Shown one piece after another: positions 32,316 to 59,665 of a stretch of DNA of 59,665 nt. This DNA is from Clostridiales bacterium GWD2_32_19. Its GTDB lineage: Bacteria; Bacillota; Clostridia; Lachnospirales; UBA12420. The notes beneath the pieces are model-generated. The model was not told where the DNA came from, did not search any database, and worked only from the letters and a program-made list of their open reading frames with translations. The position numbers were made by a program, and so were the translations under genes. How positions within the stretch are numbered: position 1 is the stretch's first letter; the number at the start of each line of letters is the position of its first letter. The stretch is taken from the NCBI GenBank assembly GCA_001795385.1, contig MGOU01000006.1, positions 1 to 59,665 of the forward strand, given 5' to 3'.

Positions 32316-34637
32316 TTGATGTATGTGACAATAATTGCACAAAACTATATAATAGCTAATGCACCAATAGGTGCTAGCAACGAGATAGAAGTACCATCGT
32401 ATTTTTATTATACAGTTGTAATTATAGCTTTAATTTTCTTCGGTATGGCTATATTTCAAAAGTTGCTGAGAGATTCTAAGGTAAGGGAATCAGACAGAAA
32501 AAGATTGGAAAGGCTTAAAGATCAAAGAGAAAAGCTTACAAGACAAAAAATAGTAACAGATCATTGTGAGGTTAATCAAAGTAGCACAAAAAACAAGAAA
32601 CATATAATGCTAAACGGGCAAAATATTGTAGTTAATGATAAGACCAGAGAAAAACATCATAATGAGATTAAAAATATAAATATTCAAGTTGAAGAAAATA
32701 AAAAGGAAGAAACATCTGTAAAAAAAGAACCACAGGTTATGGATAGTACATACATTAAACAATTACAAGAAGAAATACATAAAAGAATGTTACAAGAGAA
32801 ACGAATTGAAGAAGATAATATGATAAAAGAAGAACAAAAGGCACAAAAAATAAATAAAGAAGATGAAGAAGAAAATGAAAAGAAAACATATGAGATACAG
32901 CAGAAGATAATATTAGAAGTAATAAACCGAGAAGAGTCAAGACAAGAAGAGTTGATAAAAGAAGAATTAAAACAGAAAGAGCTAAGACAAGAAGAGTTAA
33001 GACAGGAAGAGTTAAGGCAAGAAGAAGCAAAGAAAATAGAACCAAATGTTAAGCACAATCTTATGAATATGTTAAGTAGATTGAAACCACCAAATGAAGT
33101 AAGACAGGAAGAAGTAAGACTAGAAGAAGCAAGACTAGAAGAAGCAAGACTGGAAGAAGCAAGACTGGAAGAAGTAAGACTGGAAGAAGTAAGACAGGAA
33201 GAAGTAAGACTAGAAGAAGCAAGACTAGAAGAAGCAAGACTAGAAGAAATAAGACAGGAAGAAGTAAGACTGGAAGAAGCAAGACTGGAAGAAGCAAGAC
33301 TAGAAGAAATAAGACAGGAAGAAGTAAGACTAGAAGAAGCAAGACTAGAAGAAATAAGACGGGAAGAAGTAAGACTAGAAGAAGCAAGACTGGAAGAAGT
33401 AAGACTGGAAGAAATAAGACGGGAAGAAGTAAGACTGGAAGAAGTAAGACTAGAAGAAGCAAGACTAGAAGAAGCAAGACTGGAAGAAGCAAGACTAGAA
33501 GAAGCAAGACTGGAAGAAGCAAGAATAGAAGAAATAAGACTGGAAGAAGTAAGACTGGAAGAAGTAAGACTAGAAGAAATAAGACTGGAAGAAATAAGAC
33601 TGGAAGAAATAAGACTGGAAGAAATAAGACTGGAAGAAATAAGACTGGAAGAAGTAAGACTGGAAGAAATAAGACAGGAAGAAGCAAGACAGGAAGAAGC
33701 AAGACTGGAAGAAAAAGTACCAGAAGAGATAAAATTAGAAGACGAGAAAAAATCTGAAGAGGTACCTAAAGATGAAATACTAAATGAAGATTATAAAAGA
33801 CAAGTCAGAGAAAAAACAAAAAGTATTTTGGAACAGATAAGCTTTGAAGAAATAGATTATGATTTAAATAAGGATTTTTCAAGTCATAAAATAATATTGC
33901 TGCTAAGCCCAGAAAAAACAGGAAAAACAACTATTGCTGTTAATTTAGCAGAGGAAATAGCTAGCAGAGGCATAAAAACAACGCTTATAGACACAGATAC
34001 TATAAGACAAGATGCATATTACTATTTCAATACAGAAGAGAAAGGTTGCTTGAGTAAATTATCAAGTGTTAAAATTCTTAGCGATGTATATGACTTAGGT
34101 TTAGAAGTAAATAAAAATTTAAAACTATTTTCAGAGCATAAAGGCGTAGATGTACATGTAAGCACAGATGATATAATAAAACTTGTTAAAATATCAGCAA
34201 AACATTCAGAAATAATAATTGTGGACTGTGCAAACTTTTTAGATTCTAACATAGTTAACAAACTTATAGAAATGGCAAGTGGAATTTTTATAGTTACGAA
34301 TAAGCAAGTAAATATGGCCTCTAGACTCCCTATAAAGTTATATGACCAGAGAAGAGTGCTACAAAATAAAAAAGTTGATTTAATTATAAACATGGATGAA
34401 GAAATAGACTATTTTAAAAAATCTGTAGTAGTGAATTTTTTTAAGAATATTACTTCACCACTTTATCCTATGGAGAAATATACAATACCAATAAACGAAG
34501 TATTTTCTATAGCATATGATTTAAAATCTATAATAATAGGATTGACTGCACCAAGACAATCTGCAATAAAAGTAAAAGGTAATAAAATACATGCTGGTAT
34601 AAAACAGTTAGCAGAACATGTAATTAATAGAAAATAA
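32316..34637 (+). CDS. membrane-anchored TadZ-like ATPase 2 with a 41-unit pentapeptide rod
   Basis: The 773-residue protein has a short N-terminus and a transmembrane helix at about 31-50. A charged coiled-coil region runs to about 255, then a tract of 41 pentapeptides of the form EExRL (x is A, V or I) covers residues 260-464. A MinD/ParA-like ATPase domain starts near 520, with SPEKTGKTT at 531-539 and TTLIDTDTIRQDA. The pentapeptide tract should form one continuous, charge-stabilised helix, roughly 30 nm if fully extended (205 residues at 0.15 nm). It is a paralogue of the previous gene through the ATPase domain. Such a membrane-tethered ATPase on a rod is not a Tad component I know. Confidence 0.68.
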   Translation: MMYVTIIAQNYIIANAPIGASNEIEVPSYFYYTVVIIALIFFGMAIFQKLLRDSKVRESDRKRLERLKDQREKLTRQKIVTDHCEVNQSSTKNKKHIMLNGQNIVVNDKTREKHHNEIKNINIQVEENKKEETSVKKEPQVMDSTYIKQLQEEIHKRMLQEKRIEEDNMIKEEQKAQKINKEDEEENEKKTYEIQQKIILEVINREESRQEELIKEELKQKELRQEELRQEELRQEEAKKIEPNVKHNLMNMLSRLKPPNEVRQEEVRLEEARLEEARLEEARLEEVRLEEVRQEEVRLEEARLEEARLEEIRQEEVRLEEARLEEARLEEIRQEEVRLEEARLEEIRREEVRLEEARLEEVRLEEIRREEVRLEEVRLEEARLEEARLEEARLEEARLEEARIEEIRLEEVRLEEVRLEEIRLEEIRLEEIRLEEIRLEEIRLEEVRLEEIRQEEARQEEARLEEKVPEEIKLEDEKKSEEVPKDEILNEDYKRQVREKTKSILEQISFEEIDYDLNKDFSSHKIILLLSPEKTGKTTIAVNLAEEIASRGIKTTLIDTDTIRQDAYYYFNTEEKGCLSKLSSVKILSDVYDLGLEVNKNLKLFSEHKGVDVHVSTDDIIKLVKISAKHSEIIIVDCANFLDSNIVNKLIEMASGIFIVTNKQVNMASRLPIKLYDQRRVLQNKKVDLIINMDEEIDYFKKSVVVNFFKNITSPLYPMEKYTIPINEVFSIAYDLKSIIIGLTAPRQSAIKVKGNKIHAGIKQLAEHVINRK
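33093..33707 (+). repeat. 15-bp tandem repeat, 41 in-frame units
   Basis: Units read gaagaagtaagactg with variation mainly at the x codon (gca, gta, ata) and at the last codon (ctg, cta, cag, cgg). The period is a multiple of three, so unit gain or loss changes rod length without breaking the frame. Because every unit lacks stops on the opposite strand, a spurious leucine-rich frame appears there. Confidence 0.95.
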
Positions 34638-52235: not shown

Positions 52236-52352
52236 GAAAATCACATCCTTTTAAGTTGTATATAAGAAGGAAAAAATTAAAAAATCCCTGTTTATTATAC
52301 TATTATATAATAAAACAAAGAAATCGTCAAATGGTAATAAAATATTTGTTTT

Positions 52353-52506
52353 TAATATCTCAGGGTCAATTCCCCGCAGCTCTGCTGCGAGCTAAATTTG
52401 TCATTGCGAGGAACGAAGCAATCTCGTTCTTTAAAAGACAAAAGAGAGATTGCTTCGTTCCTCGCAATGACAACATGATACCCCGTCCCCCTGCGAAGGG
52501 GAGGAA
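52353..52506. repeat. palindromic intergenic repeat, copy 3
   Basis: It runs from taatatctcagggtcaatt to ctgcgaaggggaggaacc. The centre is the near-perfect inverted repeat cattgcgaggaacgaagc... with a loop containing ttctttaaaagacaaaag, the same as in copy 2. It lies between mnmE and mnmG, which are usually adjacent, and would form a strong RNA hairpin within their transcript. Confidence 0.88.
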
Positions 52507-52515
52507 CCGAAAAGT

Positions 52516-53895
52516 TTATTTACCTAAACAGAATCTGCTAAAGATACTGTGTATTATATCTTCGCTTACTGATTCTCCTGTTATCTCGCCTAAATATCGA
52601 TATGCATTTTGCAAGTCAATAGCTAGAAGCTCTTGAGTATGAAGGAGTTTTATACTAGTTAAGACATTAGATAGGCTTTCCTCAGCCTTATTTAATGCAT
52701 TCTTGTGTCTTACATTTGTTAAAATAACTTCATTGTTTACATCAATTTCGCCGGACATAAATATTTTCTTTATTGTTTTCTCAAGATCATCAAGTCCTGT
52801 GTTTTGTGTAATAGAAAGCTTTATGATAGGAACATTATTTATGGAGTCACCAAGAATAGAAAAGTCAATAGCCTCGGGTAAGTCGGATTTATTTAAAATT
52901 ATTATATGTTTTTTATCTTTTATTCTTTCTAAGATGCTAATATCTTCGTCTGATATGGGTGATGAGTTATCTAGAATAAATAAAATCAGCTCAGCTGAAT
53001 CAATCGCTCTTCTTGATAGATCAACGCCTATTTTCTCAACAACATCTTCTGTTTCACGGATACCTGCTGTATCAACGAGTTTTAGAGGAATTCCATGTAA
53101 GTTAACATATTCTTCAATTAAATCTCTAGTAGTACCAGGTATATCAGTTACAATAGCTCGCTGTTCGCCAATTAAGGCATTGAGTAGAGAAGACTTGCCA
53201 ACATTTGGCTTTCCTACTATTGCAGTTGAGATACCTTCACGAATTATTTTACCTGTATCCGAAGTTGTGAGTAATGATTTTATTTCAGTGTTTATTTGGA
53301 TGACGGTAGTTTCTATTGTATCAATAGATAGCTGCTCAATATCGTATTCGGGATAATCTATATTTACTTCTATGTGAGAAAGTAAATCTGCAACGCTATT
53401 TTTAAGAGCAGATATTTTATGAGATAGAGAGCCCTCAAGTTGATTTACGGCAGATTGGCGTGAAAGGTCTGTTTTAGCAGTTATTAAGTCAATTACGGAC
53501 TCTGCTTGTGACAAATCGAGTCTTCCGTTTAAGAACGCACGCTTGGTAAATTCACCGGGTTCTGCGAGGTCAGCACCATATTTAAGAACTGCATCAAGTA
53601 CTCTTTGTGTAGGAATAATACCGCCGTGGCAGTTTATTTCAACAATATCCTCCTTGGTGTAAGTATTAGGCTTTTTCATCACAGATACAAGCACTTCGTC
53701 AATAGTTTTGCCTTCATCAGCAATTATTCCAAAGTGAATGGTATGGGATTTTGCTTCTGATATATCCTTTGTATGTTTAGGTACAAATATTTTTTTAATG
53801 ATAGTAAATGCATTCTCACCACTTATCCTAATAATAGATATACCGCCACTCCCAACAGGGGTGGATATTGCTGCAACAGTTAAGCTGTTTTCCAT
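52516..53895 (-). CDS. mnmE: tRNA modification GTPase MnmE
   Basis: At 459 residues this is a full-length MnmE (TrmE). It has an N-terminal tetrahydrofolate-binding domain, a helical domain, an inserted G domain (GKPNVGKSSLLNAL near 224, DIPGTTRD, DTAGIRETED), and the invariant C-terminal FCLGK that carries the catalytic cysteine. It forms the MnmEG complex with mnmG. TAGGAGGT precedes the ATG. Confidence 0.97.
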   Translation of the reverse strand: MENSLTVAAISTPVGSGGISIIRISGENAFTIIKKIFVPKHTKDISEAKSHTIHFGIIADEGKTIDEVLVSVMKKPNTYTKEDIVEINCHGGIIPTQRVLDAVLKYGADLAEPGEFTKRAFLNGRLDLSQAESVIDLITAKTDLSRQSAVNQLEGSLSHKISALKNSVADLLSHIEVNIDYPEYDIEQLSIDTIETTVIQINTEIKSLLTTSDTGKIIREGISTAIVGKPNVGKSSLLNALIGEQRAIVTDIPGTTRDLIEEYVNLHGIPLKLVDTAGIRETEDVVEKIGVDLSRRAIDSAELILFILDNSSPISDEDISILERIKDKKHIIILNKSDLPEAIDFSILGDSINNVPIIKLSITQNTGLDDLEKTIKKIFMSGEIDVNNEVILTNVRHKNALNKAEESLSNVLTSIKLLHTQELLAIDLQNAYRYLGEITGESVSEDIIHSIFSRFCLGK

Positions 53896-56405: not shown

Positions 56406-56540
56406 TTATGCTGATAGTTTATGTCTTCCTTTTTTTCTCCTAGCTGCAAGCACTCTTCTACCGTTGGCAGTACTCATTCTCGCTCTAAAACCGTGTACTT
56501 TACTTCTTTGTCTCTTTTTGGGTTGATATGTTCTTTTCAT
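56406..56540 (-). CDS. rpmH: 50S ribosomal protein L34
   Basis: The 44-residue, highly basic protein reads [18 protein letters not shown] and then the L34 core [17 protein letters not shown], ending [14 protein letters not shown] lies 7 bases before the ATG. In most Firmicutes this gene borders oriC and dnaA; here it borders a Xer-like gene and lies 41 kb from dnaA. A T-run follows a short hairpin between rpmH and rnpA, possibly attenuating the downstream operon. Confidence 0.98.
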
Positions 56541-56729: not shown

Positions 56730-56758
56730 TTGACTTTAGATGGAATATTTTGTACAAT
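56730..56758 (+). promoter_or_regulatory. sigma-A promoter of the Xer-like gene
   Basis: TTGACT and TACAAT with a 17-base spacer, 24 bases before the start codon. Confidence 0.75.
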
Positions 56759-56782
56759 AGAACAAGAAAGAAGGTGTAATAA

Positions 56783-57526
56783 ATGGAAAAATACATAAGG
56801 ATTTTTATAGAAGAAGGGTTAAAAGATAAAACGATTAATACAATAGAAGCATATAAAAGAGATTTAGATAATTTTATTATATATATAAAGAGTAAAGGAA
56901 TTTTGGATTTTGAGAAGCTTTCGGATATAGATATAATGATGTATTTTATAAACCTTGAAAAAACAGGAAAATCCAGAAATAGTATAGTAAGATATGTTGC
57001 AGTGATTAGGTCATTTCTTGATTTTTTATATAAAAGAGGGTTATTTACAAAAAAAATTGATTTTGAAAAATATAAGCCAAGAGTTGAAAAAATAGAAAGA
57101 AATATTTTATCAATGAAAGAATTTGAAAGATTAATAGATTCTATAAATATAGAGAAGAATATAGGACTTAGAGACAAAATAATAATACTGTTTATGTATT
57201 ATCATGGACTAAAGCCCACAAGTTTAGTTGAGATAAAATTAACAGATTTAGATTTAAATTTGGGTATAGTAATAATAAAAAATAAAAGAATATCAATAAA
57301 TAAGGAAGTTATGCCGCTAATTAAAGCGTATGTTATGCTATCGCGAAAGGAACTAATGAAAGGTAATGACAGTGAATATCTGTTTACAGGGTATGGGGAG
57401 GTTCGCCTAACTAGACAGTCTGTATGGAAAATAGTAAATAAGTATAGAAAAATAGCAAATATAGATATAGAGATAACATCTAATGTTTTATATGACTCAC
57501 AGAGATATCACAGAGTAGAGAAGTAG
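56783..57526 (+). CDS. degenerate, truncated XerC/XerD-like tyrosine recombinase
   Basis: The 247-residue protein has the N-terminal core-binding SAM-like domain (about 1-90) and the start of the catalytic domain (about 105-230) of Xer recombinases. The first catalytic arginine, normally in GLRxSE, is lysine at residue 144 (HGLKPTSL). The protein stops near the second box, where HxLRHS is replaced by SNVLYDS, so the conserved His/Arg and the active-site tyrosine region are missing. No remnant of the C-terminus is seen downstream. It occupies the place where xerD often sits beside nudF and punA. It probably cannot recombine DNA but may still bind it. Confidence 0.8.
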   Translation: MEKYIRIFIEEGLKDKTINTIEAYKRDLDNFIIYIKSKGILDFEKLSDIDIMMYFINLEKTGKSRNSIVRYVAVIRSFLDFLYKRGLFTKKIDFEKYKPRVEKIERNILSMKEFERLIDSINIEKNIGLRDKIIILFMYYHGLKPTSLVEIKLTDLDLNLGIVIIKNKRISINKEVMPLIKAYVMLSRKELMKGNDSEYLFTGYGEVRLTRQSVWKIVNKYRKIANIDIEITSNVLYDSQRYHRVEK

Positions 57527-57565
57527 GAAGCAATACAAAATGGATAAAACAGGAGGGTAATAATA

Positions 57566-58084
57566 ATGGATAAAATAGTATATAATGGATTTCATAAGGT
57601 TTGGCAAACGGAAGTTGAAATAAAGGGTGTAAAGAGGATATATGAAAAATTAGATATACATAATGCTGTTGCAGGTTTGGTGACAGATGAAGATGGGAAG
57701 ATTTGCCTCGTTACACAATATAGAATAGGAGCAGGAAGAAACATTAAAGAGATACCTGCCGGGCTAATAGACAAGAATCTTACAAACAAGGAAGTATTGA
57801 TTGAAGAATTGATTGAGGAGTGCGAGATAGATGAAAAGGACATAACATATATTTCAGAAAATCCCATATTATCATATTTCATGGTTGTTGGTAGCTCAGA
57901 GTGTATTTTAGAAATATATGAAGTAAAAGTAAAAAGGCAACATACAAAAACAGTAAATGATGTAGATGTAGAGTTGGTTGAATGGATAACCGAAGAACAA
58001 TTTGATGAGCATGTGAAAAATGGAGAAATAGTGGACAATAAAACATTGCTTTCATACTACTATATGAAGAATGAAGGAAAGTAA
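57566..58084 (+). CDS. nudF: NUDIX hydrolase, ADP-ribose pyrophosphatase type
   Basis: The 172-residue protein matches the ADP-ribose pyrophosphatase branch (AVAGLVTDEDGKICLVTQYR, EIPAGLID). The NUDIX box is partly altered: the Glu expected 6 residues after the first Gly is Leu, the Arg of REUxEE is Glu, and the final Gly is Glu (AGLIDKNLTNKEVLIEEL, then IEECEID). The metal-binding EExxEE core remains, so it may still be active with changed specificity. AGGAGGG precedes the ATG, 40 bases after the Xer-like gene. Confidence 0.82.
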   Translation: MDKIVYNGFHKVWQTEVEIKGVKRIYEKLDIHNAVAGLVTDEDGKICLVTQYRIGAGRNIKEIPAGLIDKNLTNKEVLIEELIEECEIDEKDITYISENPILSYFMVVGSSECILEIYEVKVKRQHTKTVNDVDVELVEWITEEQFDEHVKNGEIVDNKTLLSYYYMKNEGK

Positions 58085-58221
58085 AAGACTTTTTCGAATG
58101 GTATAAACTAGAGATAGGTTCCTCGCCTCTATCAGGGAGAGGACATTAACATAAGCTTTTGCTAATTTTAATAAGGTATTAAAAAAGTAACACAGATACT
58201 ATGAAGTACAGGAGGTTAAAT

Positions 58222-59055
58222 ATGGATACAATAGAAAAAGATTTAATAACCAAAATCGAAGAAGCAAAGAAGTATATAGAAGATAGAATAAAAGTAAAGC
58301 CTGAGGTGGGTATTGTGCTAGGTTCGGGATTAGGTGACCTAGCTGAAGAAGTTGATGATGCTGTAATGATACAATATAGTGATATACCACACTTTAAGAC
58401 ATCCACAGTAATAGGGCATGAAGGAGTGCTTATACTAGGGACATTTATGAATAAAAATGTGGTAATGATGAAAGGTAGGGTGCATTTTTACGAGGGATAT
58501 TCGATGCAAGAGATAACATTCCCAACTAGAGTAATGAAAGCATTAGGTGTTTCAAATATTATAGTTACTAATGCTGCAGGTGCAGTGAATAAAGAATTCT
58601 TCCCAGGTGAATTAATGATAATAAATGATCATATAAATATGGTAGGAATAAATCCATTGATAGGTAAAAATTTTGACGAACTTGGTACGCGTTTTCCAGA
58701 CATGACAAGTCAGTATAATAAAGAGCTTATAAGTATAGCAAACGATATAGCTTTTAATCTGAAATTAAAAATAAAAGAAGGAATATACGCATATATGTCA
58801 GGACCTAACTATGAGACAAAGGCAGAAATAAATATGCTTAGGATATTAGGTGCGGACGCAGTAGGAATGTCAACAGTACCAGAAGTCATAGTAGCAAAGC
58901 ATGCGGGTATGGATGTGCTAGGGATATCATGCATTACTAATATGGCATCAGGCATATTAGGCACTCCACTAAATCATGAAGAAGTTATAGAAGTAAGTAA
59001 TATAGTAAAAGATAAATTTAAAACTTTTATAAGAGAAATTGTAGAAAAAATGTAA
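58222..59055 (+). CDS. punA: purine-nucleoside phosphorylase (trimeric type)
   Basis: This cytosolic enzyme of about 277 residues splits purine ribonucleosides with phosphate in the salvage pathway. The family motifs are GIVLGSGLGDLAEEV (phosphate loop), the HEG motif in IGHEGVLILG, GRVHFYEGY, and TNAAGAV with MSGPNYETKAE. The ATG at 58222 follows AGGAGG; the frame opens 7 codons earlier. The neighbourhood nudF-punA after an xerD-like gene matches the Bacillus nudF-xerD-drm-punA region. Confidence 0.94.
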   Translation: MDTIEKDLITKIEEAKKYIEDRIKVKPEVGIVLGSGLGDLAEEVDDAVMIQYSDIPHFKTSTVIGHEGVLILGTFMNKNVVMMKGRVHFYEGYSMQEITFPTRVMKALGVSNIIVTNAAGAVNKEFFPGELMIINDHINMVGINPLIGKNFDELGTRFPDMTSQYNKELISIANDIAFNLKLKIKEGIYAYMSGPNYETKAEINMLRILGADAVGMSTVPEVIVAKHAGMDVLGISCITNMASGILGTPLNHEEVIEVSNIVKDKFKTFIREIVEKM

Positions 59056-59138
59056 ATGAAACCATATAAGAGTTTCAGGTTCTCCTCATGGGAGGGGGGA
59101 AATTCACACGATAAAGATAGGTATAGGTTGGTGAGCAT

Positions 59139-59516
59139 GTGAAACACAAAGAAATCATATATGTCTTTATAATTACTACATTAACAGGTGTGTGGGGATT
59201 TGAAAATATAGATACTTCAAAAATAGAAATTATTCAATCGTCTGTAGTGCAAAACAATATTGAAAAACCAAGTGAGAGCGAGCCGAAAAAACAAGAAAAT
59301 TTGACAATGCCAAGTCAAAGTAATATAATAAATATAAATACATCATCAAAGAGAGAACTAGATATATTATATAAAGTAGGGCCAAAGACTGCAGACAAGA
59401 TAATTGAGTATAGAGAAAAGAATGGAAAATTTAAAACTAAAGAAGAAATAATGAATGTAAAAGGAATAGGCGAAAAAATATACGAAAAGATAAAAGATGG
59501 TATAAGCGTAGAGTGA
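59139..59516 (+). CDS. ComEA-like helix-hairpin-helix protein
   Basis: The 125-residue protein has an N-terminal signal or membrane segment (about 4-20), a polar linker, and a C-terminal double helix-hairpin-helix domain (NINTSSKRELDILYKVGPKTADKIIEYREKNG... VKGIGEKIYEKIKDGI) typical of the ComEA DNA receptor. The SLBB domain present in Bacillus ComEA is absent. The start is GTG with AGGTTGGTG upstream. It may bind DNA at the cell surface, but no other competence genes are visible in the window. Confidence 0.78.
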   Translation: MKHKEIIYVFIITTLTGVWGFENIDTSKIEIIQSSVVQNNIEKPSESEPKKQENLTMPSQSNIININTSSKRELDILYKVGPKTADKIIEYREKNGKFKTKEEIMNVKGIGEKIYEKIKDGISVE

Positions 59517-59603
59517 AGATAAAGAACAAGGAATATAAAAGTAAGAATATAAAATGGTTGTGAATTGATTAAGACCAGTTAATAAATGTCAAGTAGTTTT
59601 GTA

Positions 59604-59625
59604 AAAAAACTCTAAAAAGTTTTTT
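59604..59625 (+). terminator. terminator-like hairpin after the ComEA-like gene
   Basis: An 8-bp stem (aaaaaact and its complement) with a 6-base loop ends in a T-run. It lies about 90 bases past the stop codon. The rest of 59517-59665 has no visible gene. Confidence 0.6.
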
Positions 59626-59665
59626 ATGCTAAAAATGTGCATAGCAAACAAAGCAATAATAAAGC

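Follow-up and report, generated by a model that had tools for sequence, protein, structure and literature searches.

Why does a bacterium keep a xerD-like gene whose product appears, from its sequence, unable to cut DNA? The stretch of DNA analyzed here, which we call the window, comprises 59,665 nucleotides of Clostridiales bacterium GWD2_32_19 (contig MGOU01000006.1; genome G000). A sequence-only reading of the window had described one of its genes, hereafter xerD′, as encoding a Xer-like recombinase without catalytic residues behind a good promoter. We asked what this gene has lost, whether selection has acted on it since, and what a protein of this kind might still do.

Results

A truncated xerD homologue in a XerD-type chromosomal place

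Rereading the sequence confirmed the ORF, its coordinates, and Lys144 as originally described, and the promoter (TTGACT-17 bp-TACAAT, by eye) is conserved in the two species that carry the gene, G000 and G002 (locus L010). The features of the region are as follows.

56406..56540, − strand: rpmH, divergent neighbor of xerD′ (adjoins PNP directly in G001)
56730..56735, + strand: −35 box TTGACT of xerD′ (by eye; identical in L010)
56753..56758, + strand: −10 box TACAAT of xerD′, 17 bp from the −35 box (by eye; identical in L010)
56770..56776, + strand: ribosome-binding site GAAGGTG of xerD′ (by eye; identical in L010)
56783..57526, + strand: xerD′, gene for a XerD homologue cut short at 247 aa, its active site destroyed (ORF, profiles, relatives)
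57212..57214, + strand: codon of Lys144, which replaces the first catalytic Arg (Lys in both species)
57479..57520, + strand: last predicted helix, residues 233–246, after which the protein stops (structure model and alignment)
57482..57496, + strand: degenerate HxxRH box NVLYD, residues 234–238 (alignment; identical in both species)
57566..58084, + strand: Nudix hydrolase gene, downstream of xerD′ (missing jointly with xerD′ in G001)
58222..59055, + strand: purine-nucleoside phosphorylase (PNP) gene, with an internal ATG as its start (profile match, G001 locus)

Judged by the Nudix and PNP genes, the order xerD′–nudix–PNP is a XerD-type chromosomal place. xerD lies directly upstream of the PNP gene in genome G021, a xerD–PNP order is found in locus L173, and L103 (G037) reads Nudix–SpoIIM-like–xerD, an order that differs from that of the window (labels by eye).

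Elsewhere in the window, about 26 kb (19034–45206) between dnaA-parB-parA-rsmG and mnmG-mnmE-jag-yidC-rnpA-rpmH hold secretion- or pilus-type genes and a few others, labeled by reading alone: a VirB4-like ATPase, a large membrane protein, a transglycosylase-like protein, CpaE/TadA-like ATPases, and pilin-like small proteins. The middle of a 773-aa protein (32316–34637) is a long run of EEARLEE/EEVRLEE-type repeats. Between mnmG and mnmE, a short ORF (52256–52636) reads VIARNEAI...CFVPRNDN, which we take to resemble a widespread dispersed repeat.

Loss of the recombinase active site

XerD′ contains the N-terminal SAM-like core-binding domain (PF02899, 41.4 bits, cut-off 22.3) and matches PF00589 (55.2 bits, cut-off 27.1), a match that stops at profile position 131 of 172. 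Its best NCBIfam model is XerD (TIGR02225, 137 bits; XerC 92, XerS 32), and its nearest solved structure by sequence is XerD 1a0p (E 4.4e-18). The score falls short of the curated XerD threshold of 329.6 bits, a strict cut-off that is exceeded in only 4/14 control genomes.

The description as a Xer-like recombinase without catalytic residues stands: the XerD catalytic set (R, K, H, R, H/W, Y) is broken by K144, N234, and Y237 and by the absence of the second His and the Tyr, and none of the catalytic positions that can be aligned (Arg, Glu, His, and Arg) retains its residue. The accompanying claim that the protein ends before its remaining active-site residues holds for the second His and the Tyr, the only residues physically missing beyond the stop. 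It does not hold for the HxxR box, which is present yet mutated, with N234 for the His and Y237 for the Arg. The C-terminal residues ITSNVLYDSQRYHRVE align with the ITPHxLRHSFAxHLxE segment of full-length XerDs, and the stop coincides with the end of the predicted HxxR-box helix. Relative to the aligned XerDs the hairpin lacks five residues, which leaves the catalytic Lys without an assignable counterpart.

The same reading had reported no trace of the lost C-terminus, and a tblastn search of window positions 57401–59665 with five XerD C-termini agreed, finding nothing better than E 0.02 (an antisense match inside the Nudix gene). No C-terminus displaced into another frame was thus found in this downstream stretch.

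Retained residues and predicted fold

To count conserved residues we used 72 sequences in which five catalytic positions are all intact (L161 and L162 excluded; L158, L160, and four Ignavibacteria rows included), in which 85 columns are ≥90% conserved. XerD′ residues face 67/85 of these columns, and the conserved residue is kept at 11/17 in the N-domain and 20/50 in the C-domain. Changed positions include 144, 147, and, in the box, 233, 234, 237, and 238. Those kept include R130-D131, R188, R211-Q212, W215-K216, and Y221, and the R211-Q212...W215-K216 stretch touches DNA in Xer proteins.

A structure model (mean pLDDT 82.6, pTM 0.56, six-row alignment) predicts that the fold is kept. The C-domain is for the most part confidently modeled, ends at helix 233–246, and superposes on XerD 5dcf with Z 15.8 (rmsd 2.9, 139 residues). 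The domain placement is unsure because the pTM is only 0.56 on a six-row alignment; over the whole chain the rmsd to XerD 1a0p exceeds 10, the two domains being placed differently or unsurely. Comparison with structures of MrpR/SroF type gave Z 10.8 (rmsd 13.9, 214 residues) for 8a0a and Z 13.6 (rmsd 5.8, 222 residues) for 9rd5. As modeled, XerD′ shares its fold with these repressors, as do all tyrosine recombinases.

Purifying selection after the truncation

The genus is sampled by three genomes: G000, which contains the window; G002, a second species (locus L010); and G001, a third. The G002 orthologue has 247 aa, 83% identity, and the same substitutions, NVLYD box, stop, promoter, and flanking genes on both sides. 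Neither XerD′ nor the Nudix protein had a match in a search of the G001 genome; at the locus PNP directly adjoins rpmH-rnpA, so that xerD′ and the Nudix gene are cleanly lost. Its absence from G001 means that xerD′ is dispensable within the genus.

Between G000 and G002, xerD′ shows dN 0.087 and dS 0.930 (NG86), a dN/dS of 0.094 (0.110 for residues 1–105 and 0.082 for residues 106–247), with 27, 15, and 84 nucleotide differences at codon positions 1, 2, and 3. This ratio is the third lowest among nine regional genes (mnmG 0.047, jag 0.079, others 0.110 to 0.217), a constraint comparable to that on adjacent housekeeping genes. The truncation being common to both species, this purifying selection postdates it. 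When the 126 nucleotide differences were reshuffled neutrally, the frame stayed open in 1/2000 trials, and amino-acid changes averaged 86 with a minimum of 72, against 42 observed. On the tree, the stem of the two-species xerD′ is long (2.35 changes per column) and its tips are short (0.12 and 0.10), a pattern that, as far as branch lengths tell, is one of shift followed by constraint.

The suggested check of conservation and selection in relatives thus points to a kept gene: the truncation is common to two species, dN/dS is 0.094, and the promoter is conserved. Among the genomes searched, no close relative has a full-length active version, which would have marked a fresh pseudogene; the sole close relative with the gene, G002, is likewise truncated, and full-length versions occur only in other families. 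The truncated 247-aa form was found in two sequences only. The shared truncation and the low dN/dS rule out a fresh pseudogene, and an assembly error is unlikely, as the same stop is present in two separate assemblies.

A companion 353-aa recombinase

All three genus genomes encode a separate XerS/XerC-like tyrosine recombinase of 353 aa, whose motifs (GIRVSE, RKGG, HKLR, GHKD, and the C-terminal Tyr) appear intact by eye, its HxxR box having been checked in the genus proteins only. This bears out the suggestion, at the level of motifs, that an active Xer protein may exist elsewhere in the genome. Identity to the G000 protein is 94% in G002, 86% in G001, and 39–64% in 29 other loci (the best-scoring XerS-model loci). 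With the XerS model the three score 186.6, 190.1, and 176.7 bits, all below the cut-off of 267. Four other tyrosine recombinases of G000 were scanned; none passes a cut-off, and two score 127–151 bits with Xer models. One tyrosine recombinase of G000 (L004 and L031; G000:C21:70148-71112) is broken into a 140-aa and a 203-aa ORF.

No conserved inverted repeat resembling a dif site was seen by eye in ~300 bp upstream of the 353-aa gene in the three species, and such a site may lie elsewhere. Upstream blocks common to 353-aa-gene loci of different families appeared coding where inspected, among the matches listed. A 28-base Bacillus-type dif pattern was found with ≤3 mismatches in 0/196 genomes, including those with intact XerD, and is uninformative on the genus. 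SMC scores above its cut-off in all three genomes.

Changed active sites recur in the order

Across the order, 84/196 sampled genomes have a xerD orthologue, called from the top-scoring match (E ≤ 1e-15) rather than from synteny genome by genome; 112/196, drafts included, have none at that threshold. We tallied five catalytic positions (first Arg, first His, second Arg, second His, and Tyr; Lys was left out) in 81 readable orthologues, namely 80 tabulated, with truncated ones counted as changed, plus G005 (L144), which gave no local tblastn match and was read by eye. Contig ends (G024 and G026) and G092 were excluded. The five positions are complete in 69/81 and changed in 12/81. The first Arg is Lys in 9/81, which takes no fewer than four substitutions on the tree, and the first His changed at least six times; the tree omits L104 and L158–L162 (fragments or duplicates), and some of its forks are weak.

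Five of the nine Arg-to-Lys cases form one clade, made up of 5/6 g6 genomes of family f6 (G061, G007, G082, G133, and G149; loci L128, L136, L152, L153, and L154). These are full-length XerD orthologues that retain the Tyr, with Lys as first Arg, Phe or Tyr as first His in 4/5, and Tyr or Phe as second His. The only g6 pair close enough for comparison, G061 and G007, shows dN 0.017 and dS 0.27. At two g6 loci (L171 and L172) the neighbors are atypical for xerD, being aminotransferase-like and diaminopimelate decarboxylase-like by eye. PDB titles report Tn1549 integrase R225K–DNA complexes, from which it follows that such a mutant can bind DNA, and nothing more.

Matches to the XerS model occur in 185/196 genomes at E 0.001, none over the cut-off and other tyrosine recombinases included, and in 170/196 at E 1e-37 or better (our own table count). 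The XerC model matches in 186/196, again with none over the cut-off, and its top matches are xerD loci; further XerC-model proteins at ~190–250 bits may represent a second Xer of canonical size (~300 aa) in some genomes. For three of the five Arg-to-Lys g6 genomes (G007, G061, and G149) the XerS-model matches are all weaker (E 9e-33 to 2e-32), which speaks against coupling xerD decay in a simple way to the presence of a second recombinase.

A similar end is found in family f23, where the xerD of G037 (L103:1530–2297 and L170) encodes 255 aa that stop nearly as XerD′ does. Two serine recombinase genes adjoin it, and no C-terminus was found in 19 kb downstream. The xerD of G024, of the same family, runs off its contig. 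The tree joins f23 (G024 and G037) with the window genus (96/93), with both stems long and thus under a warning of long-branch joining, and dS between G024 and G037 exceeds 1.6, near saturation. A common truncated ancestor of the f23 and window-genus genes is possible on this phylogenetic evidence.

Discussion

Relation to known systems

XerD′ resembles XerD (TIGR02225; PDB 1a0p, 5dcf) in its two domains, best family score, PNP neighbor, and fold, and differs in its score (137 against 329.6 bits), its changed Arg, His, and Arg positions, and its missing second His and Tyr. The streptococcal XerD-like protein (NF002685/PRK02436, 245 positions) is likewise a short XerD derivative, catalytically decayed and present beside a XerS system. 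XerD′ scores only 39.1 bits with that model (cut-off 178), matches it only to position 200 of 245, and has a genomic place unlike that of the streptococcal gene, which belongs to the scpAB neighborhood. The streptococcal protein is one instance of a recombinase fold turned DNA-binding protein.

MrpR and TnsF are others already known. MrpR (YopR) of prophage SPbeta is no longer a functional recombinase and acts as a DNA-binding repressor (PMC10516654). SroF of phage phi3T, titled a repressor in the PDB, and MrpR share the tyrosine-recombinase fold with XerD′; they are phage-borne, have ~320 residues, and are related to XerD′ at the fold level only, and MrpR still has the Lys and the C-terminal Tyr. 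TnsF of the Tn7-like element Tn6022 selects target DNA with an inactivated tyrosine-recombinase domain whose catalytic domain is shortened, as in XerD′ (PMC10293859). TnsF differs in being transposon-borne, having zinc fingers, and lacking helix K, whereas the last helix of XerD′ carries the HxxR box and is, by our own assignment, helix K. The companion protein of 353 aa (177–190 bits with the XerS model) matches XerS and XerH in size (356 and 354–362 aa; PMC5357621); it differs in scoring below the XerS cut-off of 267 and in that no conserved site was seen beside its gene. In the open-licence literature we recognized no description of a retained catalytically dead XerD in Clostridia. Less usual than the known cases are a chromosomal xerD probably so converted with xerD neighbors still around it, and changed active sites recurring in one order.

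A retained, probably DNA-binding protein

Taken together, our results suggest that this xerD probably lost its active site before the two species split, and that purifying selection has since maintained it as a pseudo-recombinase that binds DNA. XerD′ is most likely preserved because it still binds DNA. The N-terminal core-binding domain and the shortened C-terminal domain would clamp a XerD-type half-site as a monomer, without cutting; the binding surface may differ from that of XerD because 30/50 conserved positions in the C-domain and 6/17 in the N-domain have changed. Chromosome dimers would be resolved by the separate 353-aa recombinase, an assignment that we infer, since two other tyrosine recombinases of G000 also score 127–151 bits with Xer models. 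Candidate jobs for bound XerD′ are a terminus- or SMC-related role, transcription control, a scaffold role, and occupancy of a dif half-site.

A chromosome-organizing role seems to us marginally more plausible than local repression, and we hold each with considerable doubt. It is conceivable, if somewhat doubtful, that XerD′ keeps a terminus function independent of recombination, occupying XerD sites and unloading SMC as in Bacillus subtilis. SMC unloading by XerD reportedly does not require catalysis. XerD is a site-specific SMC unloader in B. subtilis (PMC8242196, PMC12322038). SMC is over its cut-off in 3/3 genus genomes and changed catalytic positions with the gene retained recur in the order, but G001 has SMC without xerD′. 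Slightly less probable is a local transcription regulator acting, for example, on the Nudix-PNP genes or on its own gene; MrpR of prophage SPbeta, a tyrosine-recombinase fold turned repressor (PMC10516654), offers a precedent. That xerD′ and the Nudix gene are both missing at the G001 locus would fit such a tie, although this joint absence may be a single deletion.

We consider it unlikely that XerD′ serves as a silent partner, occupying one half-site of a dimer-resolution site while the 353-aa recombinase cuts. The partner's motifs are intact in 3/3 genomes, but the C-terminal helices, which normally link subunits of Xer recombinases, are gone from XerD′; G001 carries the 353-aa protein without xerD′; and across the order 112/196 genomes lack a xerD orthologue (E 1e-15) while 170/196 have a XerS-model match (E 1e-37). 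A precedent comes from CTX phage integration, where XerD contributes without catalysis, probably to synapsis (PMC5357621). The missing helices and the absence of the gene from G001 make a classical partner role less likely. Very improbable, in our estimation, is a decaying pseudogene whose frame is still open by chance: the stop before the catalytic Tyr and the absence of the gene from G001 are what such decay would leave, but the dN/dS of 0.094 after a shared truncation, the neutral reshuffles (open in 1/2000 and never with as few as 42 changes), and the conserved promoter argue against it.

Implications for XerD

Beyond the genus, retention of xerD′ leads us to a broader and clearly more tentative proposal, that across the order XerD has a second, recombination-independent chromosome function that stays under selection after catalysis is lost. 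If this speculative reading were right, one release would have had separate outcomes in the genus (the truncation), in g6 (five cases), and in f16 and f20 (single cases), at least in genomes where a second recombinase handles dimers. Were XerD repeatedly stripped of catalysis yet kept, a famous DNA-cutting enzyme would have a separable job that evolution has isolated, and nature would have supplied, in the 247-aa protein, a separation-of-function form with which to probe the non-recombination roles of XerD, including its reported unloading of SMC.
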